Positions 35,825 through 41,728 of a DNA stretch of 64,000 bases are shown here, in pieces. A program made the translations under genes and the position numbers. The stretch is taken from positions 1,798,001-1,862,000 of the forward strand of contig NZ_VAWF01000001.1 of NCBI RefSeq assembly GCF_005869845.1. The letters are read 5' to 3'. This stretch comes from Fodinibius saliphilus (GTDB lineage Bacteria; Bacteroidota; Rhodothermia; Balneolales; Balneolaceae). The notes beneath the pieces are model-generated. The model saw only the letters and a list, made by a program, of their open reading frames with translations, made no database searches and was not told the origin of the DNA. Numbering within the stretch: the first letter of the stretch is position 1; every line of letters starts with the position of its first letter.

Positions 35825-36391
35825 CTATTGTCGCCATTTCCTCTTAAAACAATGATGTAGACGATTCAATATTCGAGACTTCTTTGTTCTCACATTCGCT
35901 CCGGATATATCAAAATGGGCACTTGCCTCTTTTGTTGTTGTATCCGGTTCATCAATAAAATATTCGATAAACTTACGTGAGCTCTCCCGCAACTCATCCA
36001 AACAAGCCTCTAAAATTTCTTGCCGATCCTTATCCATCAAGTTTGTGAACTGTTCTGCGGGATCAACCAGATGCTCTTGATGATCCTCCATTGGGTTATT
36101 AAAACGGTGCTGCTCTTTGGAATGGCGGAAGTATTCATGCCGGCAAGCGCGAATCATATAACTGAAAATATACTTTTCTTCCCGGATATTGTCTTTTTTG
36201 ATCTGCTCAAAAACGTCCAGAAAAGCTTGTTGGGTACACTCTTCAGCTTCGCGCTCAGTGGCATTGAGAACAACCTGCAGATAGTCCTTAAGGCGATATA
36301 GCAGCTCCTCGAGCAATTCATTGGCTTTGCCCTGTTTATTTTCTTGGAGAGCATGAACTAGCTCTGAATAATCAACTCTGGAGTTATTCAA
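35825..36391 (-). CDS. ECF (extracytoplasmic function) RNA polymerase sigma factor
   Basis: A 188-residue sigma-70-family protein with region 2 (about 25-95: AEECTQQAFLDVFEQI and SYMIRACRHEYFRH) and region 4 (about 130-185: FIEYFIDEPDTTTKEASAHFDISGANVRTKKSRILNRL). The 3' end is convergent with pdeM; the 5' end faces the lipoprotein pair. It is flanked on one side by its apparent targets: three promoters of one architecture (36555, 36686, 41608) precede the lipoprotein genes and the anti-sigma-like gene. I see no copy of that promoter before the sigma gene itself, so it may be made from a different promoter and held by the anti-sigma. Confidence 0.9.
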   Translation of the reverse strand: MNNSRVDYSELVHALQENKQGKANELLEELLYRLKDYLQVVLNATEREAEECTQQAFLDVFEQIKKDNIREEKYIFSYMIRACRHEYFRHSKEQHRFNNPMEDHQEHLVDPAEQFTNLMDKDRQEILEACLDELRESSRKFIEYFIDEPDTTTKEASAHFDISGANVRTKKSRILNRLHHCFKRKWRQ

Positions 36392-36554
36392 GGTAATAAA
36401 AAAAGCCTTATTAGCTAATCAATTTGCTGAAAAATGATACATGAAGAAGCCACGTACTATGGTTTAATCATTCAAATATATAACTATTCAATAATCATAC
36501 AAATGAAAACTCATACAATCATTGTAATTAAATTTTTTGTCTTCTGATATTTTT

Positions 36555-36585
36555 TGTAACAAACGAATGTCTAAATACTCTTGTA
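36555..36585 (+). promoter_or_regulatory. ECF-type promoter 1 (distal)
   Basis: TGTAACAAAC (36555-36564), an 11-base spacer and TACTCTTGTA (36576-36585). It points to the lipoprotein genes. Sequence and spacing are the same as in promoter 2 and the minus-strand copy at 41608-41638. Confidence 0.75.
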
Positions 36586-36685
36586 TCATAGAGTATACTG
36601 AATTATAGTCACTAAAATTTATCTTAAAATAGACTACTGTTACAAATAATTATATGTGGTAATATTACAGAAATATTGACTTTCT

Positions 36686-36716
36686 TGTAACAAACTCCCC
36701 ATTCGCTACTCTTGTA
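36686..36716 (+). promoter_or_regulatory. ECF-type promoter 2 (proximal)
   Basis: TGTAACAAAC (36686-36695), an 11-base spacer and TACTCTTGTA (36707-36716), both boxes identical to promoter 1. It ends 100 bases before the first lipoprotein ATG, leaving a 5' leader of about 90 bases. Confidence 0.8.
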
Positions 36717-36816
36717 GTCGAGAATTGGTATGTTTAATAACATTTATACTTAAGGCTTTTAGGTACAACAATTCATACTCGTTACAATTTAACCAAGAAT
36801 AAAACCAAGGATCACT

Positions 36817-37014
36817 ATGAAATCTCTCGCTAAAAAACTACTCGCTGTCACTTTCGCTTTTGCCCTGTTCACCGGTTGTGCTTCCGTTACCGACCCCGGC
36901 CTCGATACCACACCTGAGCAGAACAACTCCGAAGTCACCCAGGATACCCCTGATCGCGACGGCTTCGACTCCGACTCCGACATGAGCACCATCTACGACA
37001 AGCCCGAACTGTAA
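36817..37014 (+). CDS. Tiny acidic lipoprotein, copy 1
   Basis: A 65-residue protein: basic start (MKSLAKKLL), hydrophobic signal and lipobox FTGC (Cys21), leaving a 45-residue mature tail rich in Asp, Glu, Thr and Ser with no hydrophobic core (for example DRDGFDSDSDMSTIYD). It is probably a small membrane-anchored, disordered protein. It is GC-rich with codons (GAC, CTC, CGC, ACC) unlike its AT-rich surroundings, similar to groEL here, which suggests very high expression. It is the first gene after two ECF promoters. I do not recognise a family. Confidence 0.8.
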   Translation: MKSLAKKLLAVTFAFALFTGCASVTDPGLDTTPEQNNSEVTQDTPDRDGFDSDSDMSTIYDKPEL

Positions 37015-37308
37015 TCACTGCCTGACGTTACCTTTTTAACTCAAAACACTTTTATCATTATGAAAACGCTCGCTAAAAAACTACTCGCTGTCACTTTCGC
37101 TTTTGCCCTGTTCACCGGTTGTGCTTCCGTTACCGACCCCGGCCTCGATACCACACCTGAGCAGAACAACTCCGAAGTCACCCAGGATACCCCTGATCGC
37201 GACGGCTTCGACTCCGACTCCGACATGAGCACCATCTACGACAAGCCCGAACTGTAATCACTGCCTGACGTTACCTTTTTAACTCAAAACACTTTTATCA
37301 TTATGAAA
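36826..37308 (+). repeat. Tandem 243-base duplication of the lipoprotein gene
   Basis: The block 36826-37065 is repeated at 37069-37308 with no difference that I can see. Copy starts are 243 bases apart and only codon 3 differs (TCT against ACG). The unit covers most of the gene plus a 45-base spacer and ends in TATGAAA, so a third copy begins at 37303 but diverges after two codons. Confidence 0.95.
37060..37257 (+). CDS. Tiny acidic lipoprotein, copy 2
   Basis: A 65-residue near-copy of the lipoprotein at 36817; only residue 3 differs (Thr for Ser). Signal peptide, lipobox Cys21 and acidic tail are identical, as is the 3' flanking sequence. Perfect identity even at silent positions points to a recent duplication or ongoing gene conversion, and to selection for gene dosage. 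It is probably co-transcribed with copy 1 (45-base gap). Confidence 0.8.
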   Translation: MKTLAKKLLAVTFAFALFTGCASVTDPGLDTTPEQNNSEVTQDTPDRDGFDSDSDMSTIYDKPEL

Positions 37309-37439
37309 GTGACAGTCTGCCTTAGCTAGGCTAAGATCTATATTTTTAACAAAAATTTTGCTTTACTGTAATAGTACCATAGATTTAATCTAGAACGACC
37401 AAAAGAAATGGCATATCAATCCTAGCTAAGATCTATCTG
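37303..37439 (+). other. Truncated third repeat start and leader of the CHAT gene
   Basis: ATGAAA at 37303 begins a third lipoprotein start that runs only eight codons to TAG. A short hairpin CTTAGC-TAG-GCTAAG (37321-37335) follows. The sequence CTAAGATCTAT occurs at 37331-37341 and again at 37426-37436, just before the CHAT gene. Confidence 0.7.
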
Positions 37440-40400
37440 ATGTTGTTAGTTATTCTATTCAGCTTCTTTCAAATTGTTGCGGGGTCTGATAGCTCTGAGC
37501 TATTACATAACTCAAAACAACAAGCCAAACACTATGCAAAACAGATAGAAAACGGAATAAACACCGACGAGAACCTGTGGGCACTCAGCTTATTAGCCAG
37601 TGAAAAAGATGAGCTGAGAGACTTTATTGAACAACTTAATCGAAAGAAAAATTTCCATCCATCTTTTGATGAGGTCAACAAAAATTTTCATCAGCAGTTA
37701 AAAAAAGTAGTCTGGCATACAGGCTCTGTAGATCTATTTATCGGACTGCTTCTCCGCACCGAAACTATTCAAAGAAAGAAGAATCTCTATACTGATTTTA
37801 TATCACGCTTTACCCTCCCTTCTACTAGTAATATCCAATATGAAAAACTAGTACAAACTATTGTTCAAAACAAAACAATAGACCGAGAGAGTCTGAATCC
37901 GAATAAGTTTGTTCTTCCTCACTTTTTCCTGTTGTTTAGCAGTAGTCAAAATGATCTATTGAGTAAATCCTACCGAGAAAAGATAATACAAAGCTGGAAC
38001 ACAAGCATTTCAGACGAAAAGGACCTAAAAAAAACGCTGGCCCAATTTAGTTACTTCAGAACCCTCTACCTTGAAGACCAATATTCCAACACCTCCTCCC
38101 TTTATAATACACTGATTAATAACAAACTCTTTCCCAATTCCTCCCTTAAGCTGCGCACATTCCGCCTCCTCGACTACTCAATGTATCGACTAGGTTTCTA
38201 TGACCGTAATCTGGAAATTGCTCGAAATATTACGCTCCCATTAGCAGATTACTTAAATCGCAAAAAACTAAAACAGCAGATTAAATATTCCACTGGAATC
38301 AATCTATATAATATTGGTAAAATTAAGGCTGCAAATAAAGTCTATTTGGAGATACTTAAACAAATAGAAAAAAACAATCCTCCGATTAAATTCTCAGCGC
38401 TCTATAATAACTTAGCGTTAACTCACTACAAACTAGGACAGTATGCAAGATATTTGGATCTACAATTTCAGGCTTTAGAAACAGCCAAAAATAAGGAGAA
38501 CTACGACCACCAAATTGAAATCCTAAATAATCTTTTTATTTACCATCGAAAAACTAATGATCAGGAGAATGCCTTAGCATACCTGCAAACAGCAAGAAAA
38601 TTGGCGCAGAAAAAAAATAACAGCTCAGATTTGGGAACATTGTATATGCTGAATGGTTCTTTTTATCGGAAATTCAGGAATGATTTTCAGAAAGCCCATA
38701 TTTTTTTCAACAAGGCTGAAGAGCATCTATCCTCTTCAACTGATACCAAAGCATATATAGAGTTATTAAATGAACAAGCAGAAACTTATTCTGAGCAAAG
38801 AAAGTTTAAAAAAGCAATCGAAAAACAAGATAAGATTCTCAAATTAGCTCCCAATAAAAATAACCCAAACTTTATTGAAGCTACTATAAACAAAGCCTTA
38901 AACTACCTTAACAGTGAACAGAAAGGTAAAGCTGGCTCTCTAATCACAGAGTTTAAAAACAAAAACCTTAAGCTTCTTGATTTTGAACAAATCATAAAAG
39001 CAAAAACTATTGAAGCAAACTATCTATACCTAACTGGGAAACCTCATAAAGCACTCGCCATTCTTAATCCCGCTCTTGAGCAGGTAATTGTTAGAGCCAG
39101 AAGCAGCGCAGATCTAAAATCTGGTTTTTGGCATATCGAAGATGAGTATTTAGATGCTTTTGAGTTGGCCGTATCTATTTATTTAAAAGAAGACCAGCCG
39201 GACAAAGCAACACAAGTACTAGACCAACTTAAGACTATCAATGATTCCCGTTATTATCAGAACCCTCTTGTTAAATCGAGTTTATTGAATGAGTCCGAGC
39301 TGACCCAATATAAGAAGCTGACCAAACAGCTGGATGCCAATCGAAAAAGATTACTGACTGCTCCAGAGGATGAACAGTTTCAAATTCGCCAGCGCATAAG
39401 CAAACTTAACCTCAAAAAACGGAAGCTGGATAAAAAACTTACTAGAAAAGAAGGATCAGAAACAGTTTCAATACATAAAATCCAAAGTCAACTCTCTGCC
39501 CGTGAAATGATCATGCATGTGACTGAGCTGAAAAATAAATATTACATTGCTAAAATCAGTCGGTCGGATGTAGAAATGCAAACTGTTTCACTAGATTCAA
39601 CACTTCGCAATCTATTTTCAAATTCTGTTACACAAGTAGCTACCCATAAAACAAATCTCGACTCCTTATATACAGTCACAAAGCTACTTGGTATTAATGA
39701 TATACCTGGGCACATTGAACAGATAACCATTATCCCTGACAGTTATTTATACCAGCTTCCTATTGATATTCTACCTCTCGCGAAACCAACACACAACTAC
39801 AGTTATGGGGAAGCTACATACCTTATTGAAAAGTATAACACACAGTACCTTACTTCTCTTGACGAAGTAATTAATAAAAATAATGAACCGTCTAATATTC
39901 AAAACCCCTTGAGTTATGTTGGTTACGGTGTCTCCGAATTTAATTCTTACAAAGAAAAAAAACTTGTACCATTACCCTTTGCCCAAAAAGAAGTGACTTC
40001 CATAGCGAATAGGTTAACAAATCTATCTGAAGTACAAACTTTTATTAACCAGAACTCTACCAAAGAAACGTTTAAACGCACAGCACCAAAGGCACGTATC
40101 TTACATATGGCTACTCATAGTTCTGTCTCTGAACGCGATCCTATGTTCTCTACGATGTATATGAGCAAACAGCAGGCAGCTGCAGATACCACTTTTGAAG
40201 ACCAAATATTTGCTTATGAACTTTTTGAACTGAACCTTAACAGCGATATGATTATGCTAAACTCGTGTGAGTCTGGGTCAGGGTCATATATACAGGGAAC
40301 AGGAGTCATGGGCATTAGTCGGGCCCTTCGTTATGCCGGTGCAGAGTCGCTAGTCTTGAATTTATGGTCGGTAAATGACATGCTGGCTTCTGATTTTGCA

Positions 40401-40679
40401 GTCCATTTTTATGAACAATTAAATGAAGGAAAATCGAAAGCTGAAGCCCTACAAGCGACAAAACGGTATTTCCTCGAGAATAAAAATGCCAGCCCTCATT
40501 TTTGGGGTCCCTATATGTTAATAGGGGATTCACAACCTATTGTAAGGCCCGATTACAACAAAAATATGGCTTTAGCCGGCACCTTCGTTTTTTATTTCTT
40601 GTTGATGGTAGGTCTATCTTACATGGCAGAACAGGGAATCTTTTTTAACAATAATGGGAATAAGCAGCATAACATCTAG
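37440..40679 (+). CDS. TPR-CHAT protein (caspase-like protease), membrane-anchored
   Basis: A 1079-residue protein. A hydrophobic start (about 3-15) suggests export or anchoring. Residues about 230-620 are helical TPR-type repeats (for example NNLALTHYKLGQYARYLDLQ). The C-terminal CHAT caspase-like domain has the dyad His893 (HMATHSS) and Cys943 (LNSCESGSG), then GVMGISRALRYAGAESLV. A C-terminal membrane helix lies at about 1043-1061. The frame is open back to 37389 without an ATG, so a non-ATG start adding Lys residues before the signal is possible. It lies between the sigma factor's targets and the anti-sigma-like gene and ends in a strong terminator (40692-40719). Proteolysis of a regulator or of the lipoproteins is an inference from CHAT systems such as Csx29. 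Confidence 0.92.
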   Translation: MLLVILFSFFQIVAGSDSSELLHNSKQQAKHYAKQIENGINTDENLWALSLLASEKDELRDFIEQLNRKKNFHPSFDEVNKNFHQQLKKVVWHTGSVDLFIGLLLRTETIQRKKNLYTDFISRFTLPSTSNIQYEKLVQTIVQNKTIDRESLNPNKFVLPHFFLLFSSSQNDLLSKSYREKIIQSWNTSISDEKDLKKTLAQFSYFRTLYLEDQYSNTSSLYNTLINNKLFPNSSLKLRTFRLLDYSMYRLGFYDRNLEIARNITLPLADYLNRKKLKQQIKYSTGINLYNIGKIKAANKVYLEILKQIEKNNPPIKFSALYNNLALTHYKLGQYARYLDLQFQALETAKNKENYDHQIEILNNLFIYHRKTNDQENALAYLQTARKLAQKKNNSSDLGTLYMLNGSFYRKFRNDFQKAHIFFNKAEEHLSSSTDTKAYIELLNEQAETYSEQRKFKKAIEKQDKILKLAPNKNNPNFIEATINKALNYLNSEQKGKAGSLITEFKNKNLKLLDFEQIIKAKTIEANYLYLTGKPHKALAILNPALEQVIVRARSSADLKSGFWHIEDEYLDAFELAVSIYLKEDQPDKATQVLDQLKTINDSRYYQNPLVKSSLLNESELTQYKKLTKQLDANRKRLLTAPEDEQFQIRQRISKLNLKKRKLDKKLTRKEGSETVSIHKIQSQLSAREMIMHVTELKNKYYIAKISRSDVEMQTVSLDSTLRNLFSNSVTQVATHKTNLDSLYTVTKLLGINDIPGHIEQITIIPDSYLYQLPIDILPLAKPTHNYSYGEATYLIEKYNTQYLTSLDEVINKNNEPSNIQNPLSYVGYGVSEFNSYKEKKLVPLPFAQKEVTSIANRLTNLSEVQTFINQNSTKETFKRTAPKARILHMATHSSVSERDPMFSTMYMSKQQAAADTTFEDQIFAYELFELNLNSDMIMLNSCESGSGSYIQGTGVMGISRALRYAGAESLVLNLWSVNDMLASDFAVHFYEQLNEGKSKAEALQATKRYFLENKNASPHFWGPYMLIGDSQPIVRPDYNKNMALAGTFVFYFLLMVGLSYMAEQGIFFNNNGNKQHNI

Positions 40680-40691
40680 CAAAAATAGAAT

Positions 40692-40719
40692 AGGCCGGAA
40701 GGATATTTCCTTCCGGCCT
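40692..40719. terminator. Terminator between the CHAT and anti-sigma-like genes
   Basis: AGGCCGGAAGG (40692-40702) and CCTTCCGGCCT (40709-40719) form a perfect 11-bp stem with a 6-base loop followed by TTTATT; it can serve both convergent genes. Confidence 0.9.
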
Positions 40720-40758
40720 TTTATTCATTTCCTGATACTAGAAGAGTTGCTTTTTTCT

Positions 40759-41490
40759 TTAGTCAGAAAGGGCGTCAAGATAACTTTTAGAAACTCTGCG
40801 GTAAGCCCCATTTAAATCATACGCTTTTTCAATATGCGTTCGTGCCTTCACAAGCTGATCTATATGGAAGTAGGCGTTACCCACATACCAATATGCCTTT
40901 TCTAACATAAGAAGATCCACTTTCTCTTTGTGTTCTATCACTCGCTCATAATGATTAATGGATTCTCGATAATTACCCTCATTATAATAGAGAGATCCTA
41001 AGTTTAAACTTAATTCAGCAATCCAGGAAGGTTTTGACGCCTTTTCCAACTCACTATCTAATAAATTAATGGCTTCAGTGACTGCCCCTGTATTGGCTAG
41101 ACGTATTGCATCCCGAATAACCTTAGAGTCATCCTGAGCCATATTACCATCTTCAGAACGATAATAATCAAGCTCAATACTAGAGATTGGTTCTAAAGAT
41201 CGTGTGTTATTTTGGTTATAAATATTCATATAACCTACTACGCCAACTAAAAAGATAACTATGGCTGCAGCAGCATAAAACCATTTTTTTCTTCTTTTCT
41301 GAATTTGACGTTCTTCCTTCTTCTTTTCAATAACAGCCTTCACATTTGCAACACTTTTCATATAGTCCAGATGGTAACCATCCTGGATCAATTCTGCCCA
41401 TAGCTCGTCTGTCTCTCTTGGCGAAAGCTCTCCATTGACATACTTGTCAATTTTTTCTTCCAACTGCTTTTCATTATAGCTCTCAATCAT
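40759..41490 (-). CDS. Membrane anti-sigma-like protein with extracytoplasmic TPRs
   Basis: A 243-residue single-pass protein. The first 60 residues (LEEKIDKYVNGELSPRETDE...) look like the cytoplasmic helical part of anti-sigma factors (the 'YxxGELSPxE' pattern), followed by a basic stretch, a membrane helix (about 70-88) and a C-terminal region (about 120-243) with TPR-like repeats (SLNLGSLYYNEGNYRESINHYERVI and AYWYVGNAYFHIDQLVKARTHIEKAY in shorter segments). It should hold the ECF sigma factor at the membrane and sense an outside or CHAT-linked signal. A minus-strand copy of the ECF promoter lies 118 bases before its start, which fits negative feedback. The anti-sigma assignment is by pattern and context, not by a zinc motif. 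Confidence 0.8.
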   Translation of the reverse strand: MIESYNEKQLEEKIDKYVNGELSPRETDELWAELIQDGYHLDYMKSVANVKAVIEKKKEERQIQKRRKKWFYAAAAIVIFLVGVVGYMNIYNQNNTRSLEPISSIELDYYRSEDGNMAQDDSKVIRDAIRLANTGAVTEAINLLDSELEKASKPSWIAELSLNLGSLYYNEGNYRESINHYERVIEHKEKVDLLMLEKAYWYVGNAYFHIDQLVKARTHIEKAYDLNGAYRRVSKSYLDALSD

Positions 41491-41607
41491 GATTCTTCAC
41501 GTTTAAATTTTACTTAAATATATCTTACAATACCCTCAAAGGATAATGTCTGCAGCAACCCAACATAATGACTATCGTAATCCAATTATGTTTTCATCAA
41601 TTCATGT

Positions 41608-41638
41608 AACAAGAGTATTTTAAATCCCATTTGTTACA
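41608..41638 (-). promoter_or_regulatory. ECF-type promoter 3, before the anti-sigma-like gene
   Basis: On the minus strand, TGTAACAAAT (41638-41629), an 11-base spacer and TACTCTTGTT (41617-41608). It is one base different in each box from promoters 1 and 2 and is 118 bases before the anti-sigma-like ATG. Confidence 0.75.
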
Positions 41639-41728
41639 AAATATTTTTGCATTTAGGATTAAAGCCAAATACTAATTAGCTTTGAACAGCTTTAAAAGTA
41701 CTTTAATCTTAAATATTAAAATTTTCTA

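Follow-up and report, generated by a model that had tools for sequence, protein, structure and literature searches.

A candidate TPR-CHAT site-1 protease and an invariant linker arginine in a predicted ECF-like sigma/anti-sigma circuit of Balneolales

Introduction

Proteins in which tetratricopeptide repeats (TPRs) are joined to a CHAT protease domain accompany sigma factors in described bacterial systems. In Myxococcus xanthus, the extracytoplasmic function (ECF) sigma factor DdvS is paired with DdvA (PDB 8rot, 8rw5), a transmembrane anti-sigma factor with a TPR-CHAT module; inactivation of DdvA makes DdvS active (PMC4374960), and the target of DdvS is a defence island (PMC12288465). In the Csx29-Csx30-CASP-sigma system, a TPR-CHAT protease acts on a sigma inhibitor, and a sigma motif is present at the system's own locus (PMC10028731). 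The cut made by separase falls after ExxR, where D2151 recognises the arginine; in Csx29, the position of D2151 is occupied by lysine (PMC9729208). In this study, we analysed 64,000 nucleotides of Fodinibius saliphilus (family Balneolaceae, Fodinibius group; contig NZ_VAWF01000001.1, positions 1,798,001 to 1,862,000; hereafter the window), in which genes for an ECF-like sigma factor, two tiny lipoproteins, a TPR-CHAT protein and a predicted TPR anti-sigma lie together. On balance, we lean towards the TPR-CHAT protein acting as a site-1 protease on the anti-sigma, and we regard an envelope stress circuit of Balneolales that works by regulated proteolysis as the somewhat better supported account of the locus.

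An earlier note on the window had proposed such a cleavage, had called the circuit self-contained and knew of no described system with this gene set. The set was indeed not named in the literature searched, which comprised titles and the openings of abstracts, subscription papers being outside reach. The statement needs qualifying because DdvA, a transmembrane anti-sigma, has a CHAT domain and was solved as a 'CHAT domain-containing protein' (8rot/8rw5).

The linker arginine and the candidate protease

The features on which the proposal depends are listed below; the five genes that the earlier note had described were found at these and the lipoprotein positions given further on, with both catalytic codons intact.

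35825..36391, minus strand: ECF-like sigma factor gene (TTG start, 188 amino acids)
37440..40679, plus strand: TPR-CHAT gene (1079 amino acids)
40116..40118, plus strand: codon of the catalytic His893 of TPR-CHAT, reads His
40266..40268, plus strand: codon of the catalytic Cys943 of TPR-CHAT, reads Cys
40377..40379, plus strand: codon of the invariant Asp980 of TPR-CHAT (LWSVND), candidate P1-Arg-binding residue
40759..41490, minus strand: predicted anti-sigma gene (TPR/transmembrane protein, 243 amino acids)
41158..41160, minus strand: codon of the invariant linker Arg111 of the anti-sigma, predicted site-1 cleavage point

In the AlphaFold2 (AF2) model of the anti-sigma (mean predicted local distance difference test, pLDDT, 78.8), N-terminal helices reach residue 64 and are followed by a membrane helix at 71-93, then by a linker (94-118) that is disordered and in which residues 110-117 have pLDDT below 50, and finally by TPRs, which Pfam also matches. 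The predicted topology is a cytoplasmic N-terminus with the TPRs in the periplasm. Within the linker, Arg111 alone is invariant (27/27 aligned orthologues), the other columns having a mean conservation of 0.49, and it is kept in all 39 distinct orthologues, a set in which L297 duplicates L208 and L298 duplicates L207, each pair being counted once, and from which L064par, L209par and L301 were excluded as belonging to the paralogous type. At P4, 24 of the 27 aligned sequences and 30/39 overall have Asp or Glu, which gives the separase-type motif (D/E)xxR. Moreover, P2 is always Tyr, Val, Ile or Met and P1' always Ser, Asp, Gly or Asn in the 27 aligned anti-sigmas. This arginine, mostly within (D/E)xxR, is new evidence for a mechanism in which the CHAT protein cuts the anti-sigma.

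The TPR-CHAT protein consists of a hydrophobic N-terminus, a helical TPR part to approximately residue 667, a CHAT domain at 757-1030 (PF12770, 2.9e-51, 175.1 bits against a cut-off of 24; TPRs were matched as well) and a membrane helix at approximately 1039-1064. The hydrophobic N-terminus together with the C-terminal helix suggests a periplasmic enzyme that is tethered to the inner membrane. His893 and Cys943 are invariant in 28/28 aligned orthologues, whose identity to the window protein goes down to approximately 31%. By its domain score and this His-Cys pair, the protein fits the CHAT peptidases and is predicted to be proteolytic. Additionally, Asp980, which lies 37 residues past Cys943 in the LWSVND motif, is invariant in 23/23 sequences and, from its motif position, is plausibly equivalent to the Arg-binding D2151 of separase; Csx29 differs here in carrying lysine (PMC9729208).

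The same residues bear on a non-proteolytic role, in which the TPR-CHAT protein would act as sensor or co-inhibitor while bound to the anti-sigma via TPR-TPR contacts. Both proteins have TPRs, and Csx29 and separase are kept inactive in complexes (PMC9729208), but a catalytic pair that is invariant at such low identity argues against this role, which we consider improbable.

The AF2 model of the TPR-CHAT protein (mean pLDDT 80.2, with residues 945-956 and 973-977 below 50) shows a long helical TPR part, the CHAT domain and a C-terminal helix (1039-1064). In the structure comparison, the top match was Csx29 (Z 22.0, root-mean-square deviation, rmsd, 5.0 over 443 residues), followed by separases and DdvA (Z ~17, rmsd mostly 5-19). 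For DdvA (8rot_A), 515 residues were aligned with Z 17.2, a range that is also reached by TPR-only proteins, and rmsd 11.1. Foldseek returned Csx29 (E 3.4e-10) and DdvA (E 8.4e-10), and the model has the fold of a DdvA-type TPR-CHAT ectodomain. A profile of the CHAT domain had DdvA as its sole match among the PDB sequences (E 0.0021); a single CHAT domain sequence had no match there, and the results of the full-length profile were swamped by TPRs.

A second, paralogous sigma/TPR-anti-sigma pair, adjacent and co-oriented, lies on another contig of the same genome (L064, G000:C2:340000-359900), near two TPR-CHAT genes that do not encode the C-terminal membrane helix. Pairs of this type (L064, L211-L230) stand beside scpA and often ruvB. 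Sigma and anti-sigma are neighbours in 19 of the 20 paralogous loci that were fetched (in L217 the sigma was not called; in L222 the anti-sigma is fragmentary), and this adjacency supports the anti-sigma assignment of the TPR/transmembrane protein in the window. A TPR-CHAT gene was present within the stretch in 16/20 of these loci, while genomes G012 and G013 have one approximately 25 kb away. The paralogous anti-sigmas also have one invariant linker arginine (20/20 aligned, L222 being too short to be included), which is followed by Ser in 14 and by Ala in 3.

Conservation of the gene cluster

We mapped 34 sigma loci, one per genome, which were drawn from the better matches among the 88 family genomes with any sigma match; counts over 35 loci also include the window. 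The same gene order, for which the earlier note had suggested a search in related genomes, was kept in every uninterrupted locus: 27/27 have the sigma, at least one small lipoprotein, TPR-CHAT and, on the strand opposite to CHAT, the anti-sigma. The remaining 7/34 contigs (L045, L046, L049, L052, L053, L057 and L083) stop at the lipoprotein array or close to it, and a number of further contigs have runs of N at the array, so the true lipoprotein copy numbers are probably underestimated. The anti-sigma of L051 was missed by the open reading frame (ORF) picker and was recovered by tblastn, and L056 has a shorter CHAT frame of 927 amino acids beside an ORF of 148 amino acids. In L051 (G037), the TPR-CHAT frame is in three pieces, with the anti-sigma and its arginine intact, owing to either decay or a sequencing error.

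The distant members L205, L207, L208, L296 and L299 keep the layout, although no lipoprotein was recognised in L299. In L292 and L293, CHAT adjoins the anti-sigma and no sigma was recognised; the lipoprotein match was weak in L292, and there was none in L293. A response regulator gene adjoins the anti-sigma gene in several distant members (L207:4672-5250, L205:3538-4125, L295:7564-8166, L296:11174-11761, L299:6801-7391 and L302:4307-4888); as a candidate for a second sigma, this gene of approximately 195 amino acids was rejected. The anti-sigma profile matched 52/395 genomes of the phylum at E 1e-10, and as all of them belong to one order, Balneolales, the system seems to occur in that order only; a profile at this threshold could miss weaker relatives.

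That genes on both strands came together by chance is hardly credible, since it is already contradicted by the conserved layout and by shared promoters with zero control matches. An anti-phage system, comparable to DdvS with its CBASS and CRISPR island or to Csx29-Csx30 of type III-E CRISPR, would agree with the work of the closest solved relatives in defence. However, PADLOC matched neither the sigma nor CHAT, and the anti-sigma only weakly and through its TPRs (the rest of the window was not scanned for defence genes). The three flanking genes that were searched encode housekeeping types, namely an Lhr-type helicase, PdeM and a thioredoxin-like lipoprotein; none of these three is a cas gene, and the same neighbours stand beside the cluster in many relatives. 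We rejected a defence role as very improbable.

Promoters, lipoprotein array and predicted regulon

The further features of the locus are the following:

36555..36584, plus strand: predicted sigma-dependent promoter 1, 5' of the lipoprotein array, TGTAACAAA-N12-TACTCTTGT
36686..36715, plus strand: predicted sigma-dependent promoter 2, 5' of the lipoprotein array, TGTAACAAA-N12-TACTCTTGT
36811..37053, plus strand: tandem repeat unit 1 (243 nt), holding lipoprotein gene 1 (36817-37014, 65 amino acids)
37054..37296, plus strand: tandem repeat unit 2 (243 nt), 99% identical to unit 1, holding lipoprotein gene 2 (37060-37257, 65 amino acids)
40692..40722, no strand: terminator-like hairpin where the CHAT and anti-sigma genes converge, with a stem of 12 bp, a TATT loop and a T-run, read from the sequence
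41609..41638, minus strand: predicted sigma-dependent promoter of the anti-sigma gene, TGTAACAAA-N12-TACTCTTGT

The promoters that had been seen in the window were borne out as three exact copies of the motif, two before the lipoproteins and one before the anti-sigma, where shuffles lead one to expect 0.06 with up to 3 mismatches. When up to 2 mismatches are allowed, 30/35 loci have the motif upstream of the lipoproteins and 20/27 have it upstream of the anti-sigma, and the reversed-pattern control gave 0 throughout the mapped loci. No such site faces the sigma gene in any of the 35 loci, and autoregulation of the sigma through the same promoter was rejected on this ground. The sigma protein itself scored just below the cut-off of TIGR02937 (sigma70-ECF; 40.6 against 42.9 bits) and below that of Pfam Sigma70_r4 (16.2 against 24.1 bits), while the profile of its family matched ECF SigE among the PDB sequences (E 0.0021).

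The genome of the window holds 5 exact motif sites and 8 with at most 1 mismatch, those of the window included; with at most 3 mismatches there are 25 sites against 7 of the reversed control. Ten relatives together have 86 sites against 10 at 2 mismatches, although in one of the relatives (G040) the control outnumbers the motif, 4 against 3. Genes located 3' of the other sites include those for S8, C10 and M23 peptidases, MacB/FtsX, an RND transporter, response regulators and, in 4 genomes, ParA. The motif also precedes a pilin-like gene (judged by eye; without a Pfam match), which is followed by GspF. The MacB/FtsX and response regulator sites in the window's genome have 3 mismatches, a level at which chance hits are common. 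Judged by annotation, the predicted regulon leans to envelope functions. The parA-like gene, which is preceded by the motif at L067:6171-6200 (minus strand) and likewise in all four genomes, would tie the response to chromosome segregation. As the predictions include a wider regulon and, behind the same promoter, a small RNA that is conserved, and the motif recurs across the genome, the description of the circuit as self-contained was wrong.

The lipoproteins have a predicted mature part of 45 residues in the window. Copies within one array share a DNA identity of at least 0.95 in 13/18 arrays (the lowest pair being 0.72), whereas first copies compared across genomes have a median of 0.60 (406 pairs). 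This similarity inside arrays together with divergence between genomes is consistent with frequent duplication or gene conversion. In most of the lipoproteins, the C-terminal tail is P-I-(V/I)-x-(K/R)-P-like; the count of 29/29 is partly circular since a prior filter required PI or T in the tail, and this filter dropped L050 (PMVDKP) and L081 (PVIEKP), besides L046, L052 and L076. The lipoprotein genes are atypical in codon use, with a GC content of 0.54-0.55 compared to 0.40 in the window and a codon adaptation index of 0.57, which is below the window mean of 0.71 and leaves codon-optimised, highly expressed lipoproteins unsupported.

The position of the CHAT gene 3' of the array and its promoters, and the M23, C10 and S8 peptidase genes behind other motif sites, would agree with the TPR-CHAT protein being a sigma-dependent effector rather than the switch, so that another protease frees the sigma and CHAT cuts envelope substrates, perhaps the lipoproteins. 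In L292 and L293, however, CHAT adjoins the anti-sigma even where no sigma was recognised, and the invariant arginine lies in the linker of the anti-sigma, while none is shared by the aligned lipoproteins. We therefore regard the effector role as unlikely, though less so than a non-proteolytic one.

Proposed circuit

According to the site-1 protease proposal, the cytoplasmic N-terminus of the anti-sigma would hold the ECF-like sigma at the inner membrane. When triggered by an envelope signal, the exported, tail-anchored TPR-CHAT protein would cleave the flexible periplasmic linker of the anti-sigma after Arg111, and an M50 (RseP-type) protease would then free the sigma; the genome of the window encodes such a protease (C1:586793-588046, E 4.8e-66), whose role on the anti-sigma is predicted. 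The sigma would transcribe the lipoprotein array and probably also the CHAT gene behind it, giving positive feedback, the anti-sigma gene, giving negative feedback, as well as the small RNA and envelope genes. The gene layout, the promoter motifs, the invariant catalytic and linker residues and the fold were computed; sigma binding, cleavage, topology, the signal, co-transcription and the order of events are predicted. The interpretation in the earlier note is partly supported: the conserved neighbourhood, the catalytic pair and the linker arginine speak for it, cleavage and control by this sigma are predictions, and its self-contained character was lost.

Several observations weigh against this proposal. 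The acidic P4 residue is missing in 9/39 orthologues and mostly missing in the paralogous anti-sigma family, and Arg111 could bind a partner instead of being cut. The pairing of Asp980 with D2151 comes from motif position, not from residue-level superposition, and TPR-only proteins (kinesin light chains, LGN) score Z 17-20 with the TPR-CHAT model. Csx29 cuts its sigma inhibitor although it has lysine at the Arg-binding position (PMC9729208), so the fold alone does not give specificity. The N-terminal hydrophobic stretch of TPR-CHAT is below the hydropathy threshold, its export having been judged by eye. Furthermore, 182 nt separate lipoprotein gene 2 from the CHAT gene in the window, and with at most 2 mismatches the motif was not found before the anti-sigma in 7/27 loci or before the lipoproteins in 5/35.

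Taken with the other predictions, the proposal extends to a tentative joint picture, which we hold with less confidence than the cleavage itself: a membrane-tethered, separase-like TPR-CHAT site-1 protease would cut the anti-sigma at the invariant linker arginine, mostly within (D/E)xxR, in two paralogous forms that are present in the window's genome and in many relatives; the outputs would be a small RNA that depends on the sigma and has no Rfam match, and tiny lipoproteins from a homogenised tandem array. These lipoproteins carry a PI(V/I)x(K/R)P-like C-terminal tail and may exert feedback by serving as ligands of the TPR domain.

The locus resembles DdvS-DdvA in combining an ECF-like sigma, a predicted transmembrane anti-sigma and a TPR-CHAT module, but what DdvA fuses in one polypeptide is divided here between two genes, which are separate and convergent in the window as well as in 27/27 uninterrupted loci. 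For DdvA, a model was reportedly proposed in which CHAT autoproteolysis occurs in trans and RseP acts next. The predicted outputs here are the lipoprotein array and the small RNA, with no defence gene among the neighbours searched, in contrast to the defence island that is the target of DdvS (PMC12288465). Csx29 likewise combines TPRs with a CHAT protease domain; Craspase, however, is RNA-triggered and tied to Cas7-11, whereas the CHAT protein of the window is predicted to be membrane-anchored. Separase, which matches in fold over both the TPR part and the protease domain, has its counterpart here in the (D/E)xxR-like site of the presumed substrate, but is eukaryotic, cuts cohesin and works without a sigma factor. 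In outline, the proposed circuit resembles DegS-RseA-RseP/sigma-E of E. coli, with a membrane anti-sigma, a periplasmic site-1 cut and an envelope regulon (PMC10028731 for the proteolysis). DegS is a PDZ serine protease, whereas a TPR-CHAT cysteine protease would make the site-1 cut here, and the sigma gene of the window does not itself have the promoter. The split arrangement, the candidate cleavage site, the lipoprotein array and the small RNA set the locus apart from both DdvA and Csx29-Csx30. If the proposal is true, a caspase/separase-like protease gains a signal-transducing role outside defence, and this two-protein counterpart of DdvA allows protease and substrate to be tested apart, with a single residue, Arg111, named for mutation.

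A conserved candidate small RNA

The small RNAs that belong to the sigma-E regulon of E. coli have a possible parallel here. Between MFS and methyltransferase genes, an exact sigma promoter is followed by a stretch that is near-identical in two species and ends in a terminator (L065:6405-6540, minus strand, equal to G000:C1:1281404-1281539; relatives L262-L291). No conserved reading frame was found behind this promoter, and the stretch is a candidate small RNA of roughly 105-120 nt, without an Rfam family at E up to 1. To our knowledge, the stress responses of this branch of bacteria have been little studied, and the candidate would add a small RNA to it. It was matched in 39/89 family genomes (in G012 only the terminator hairpin matched), 30 of which were aligned. 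Across the alignment, the stretch ACTCCT is invariant and the stretch ACCTAAAGC is conserved. At the 30 aligned loci, the promoter is present within 2 mismatches in 18 and within 4 in 27, while the reversed control gave 0 and shuffles lead one to expect 0 (at most 2 mismatches) and 0.15 loci (at most 4). None of 200 shuffles folds as well as the candidate RNA (z -3.1), and in its terminator both sides have changed at 8/11 predicted pairs.

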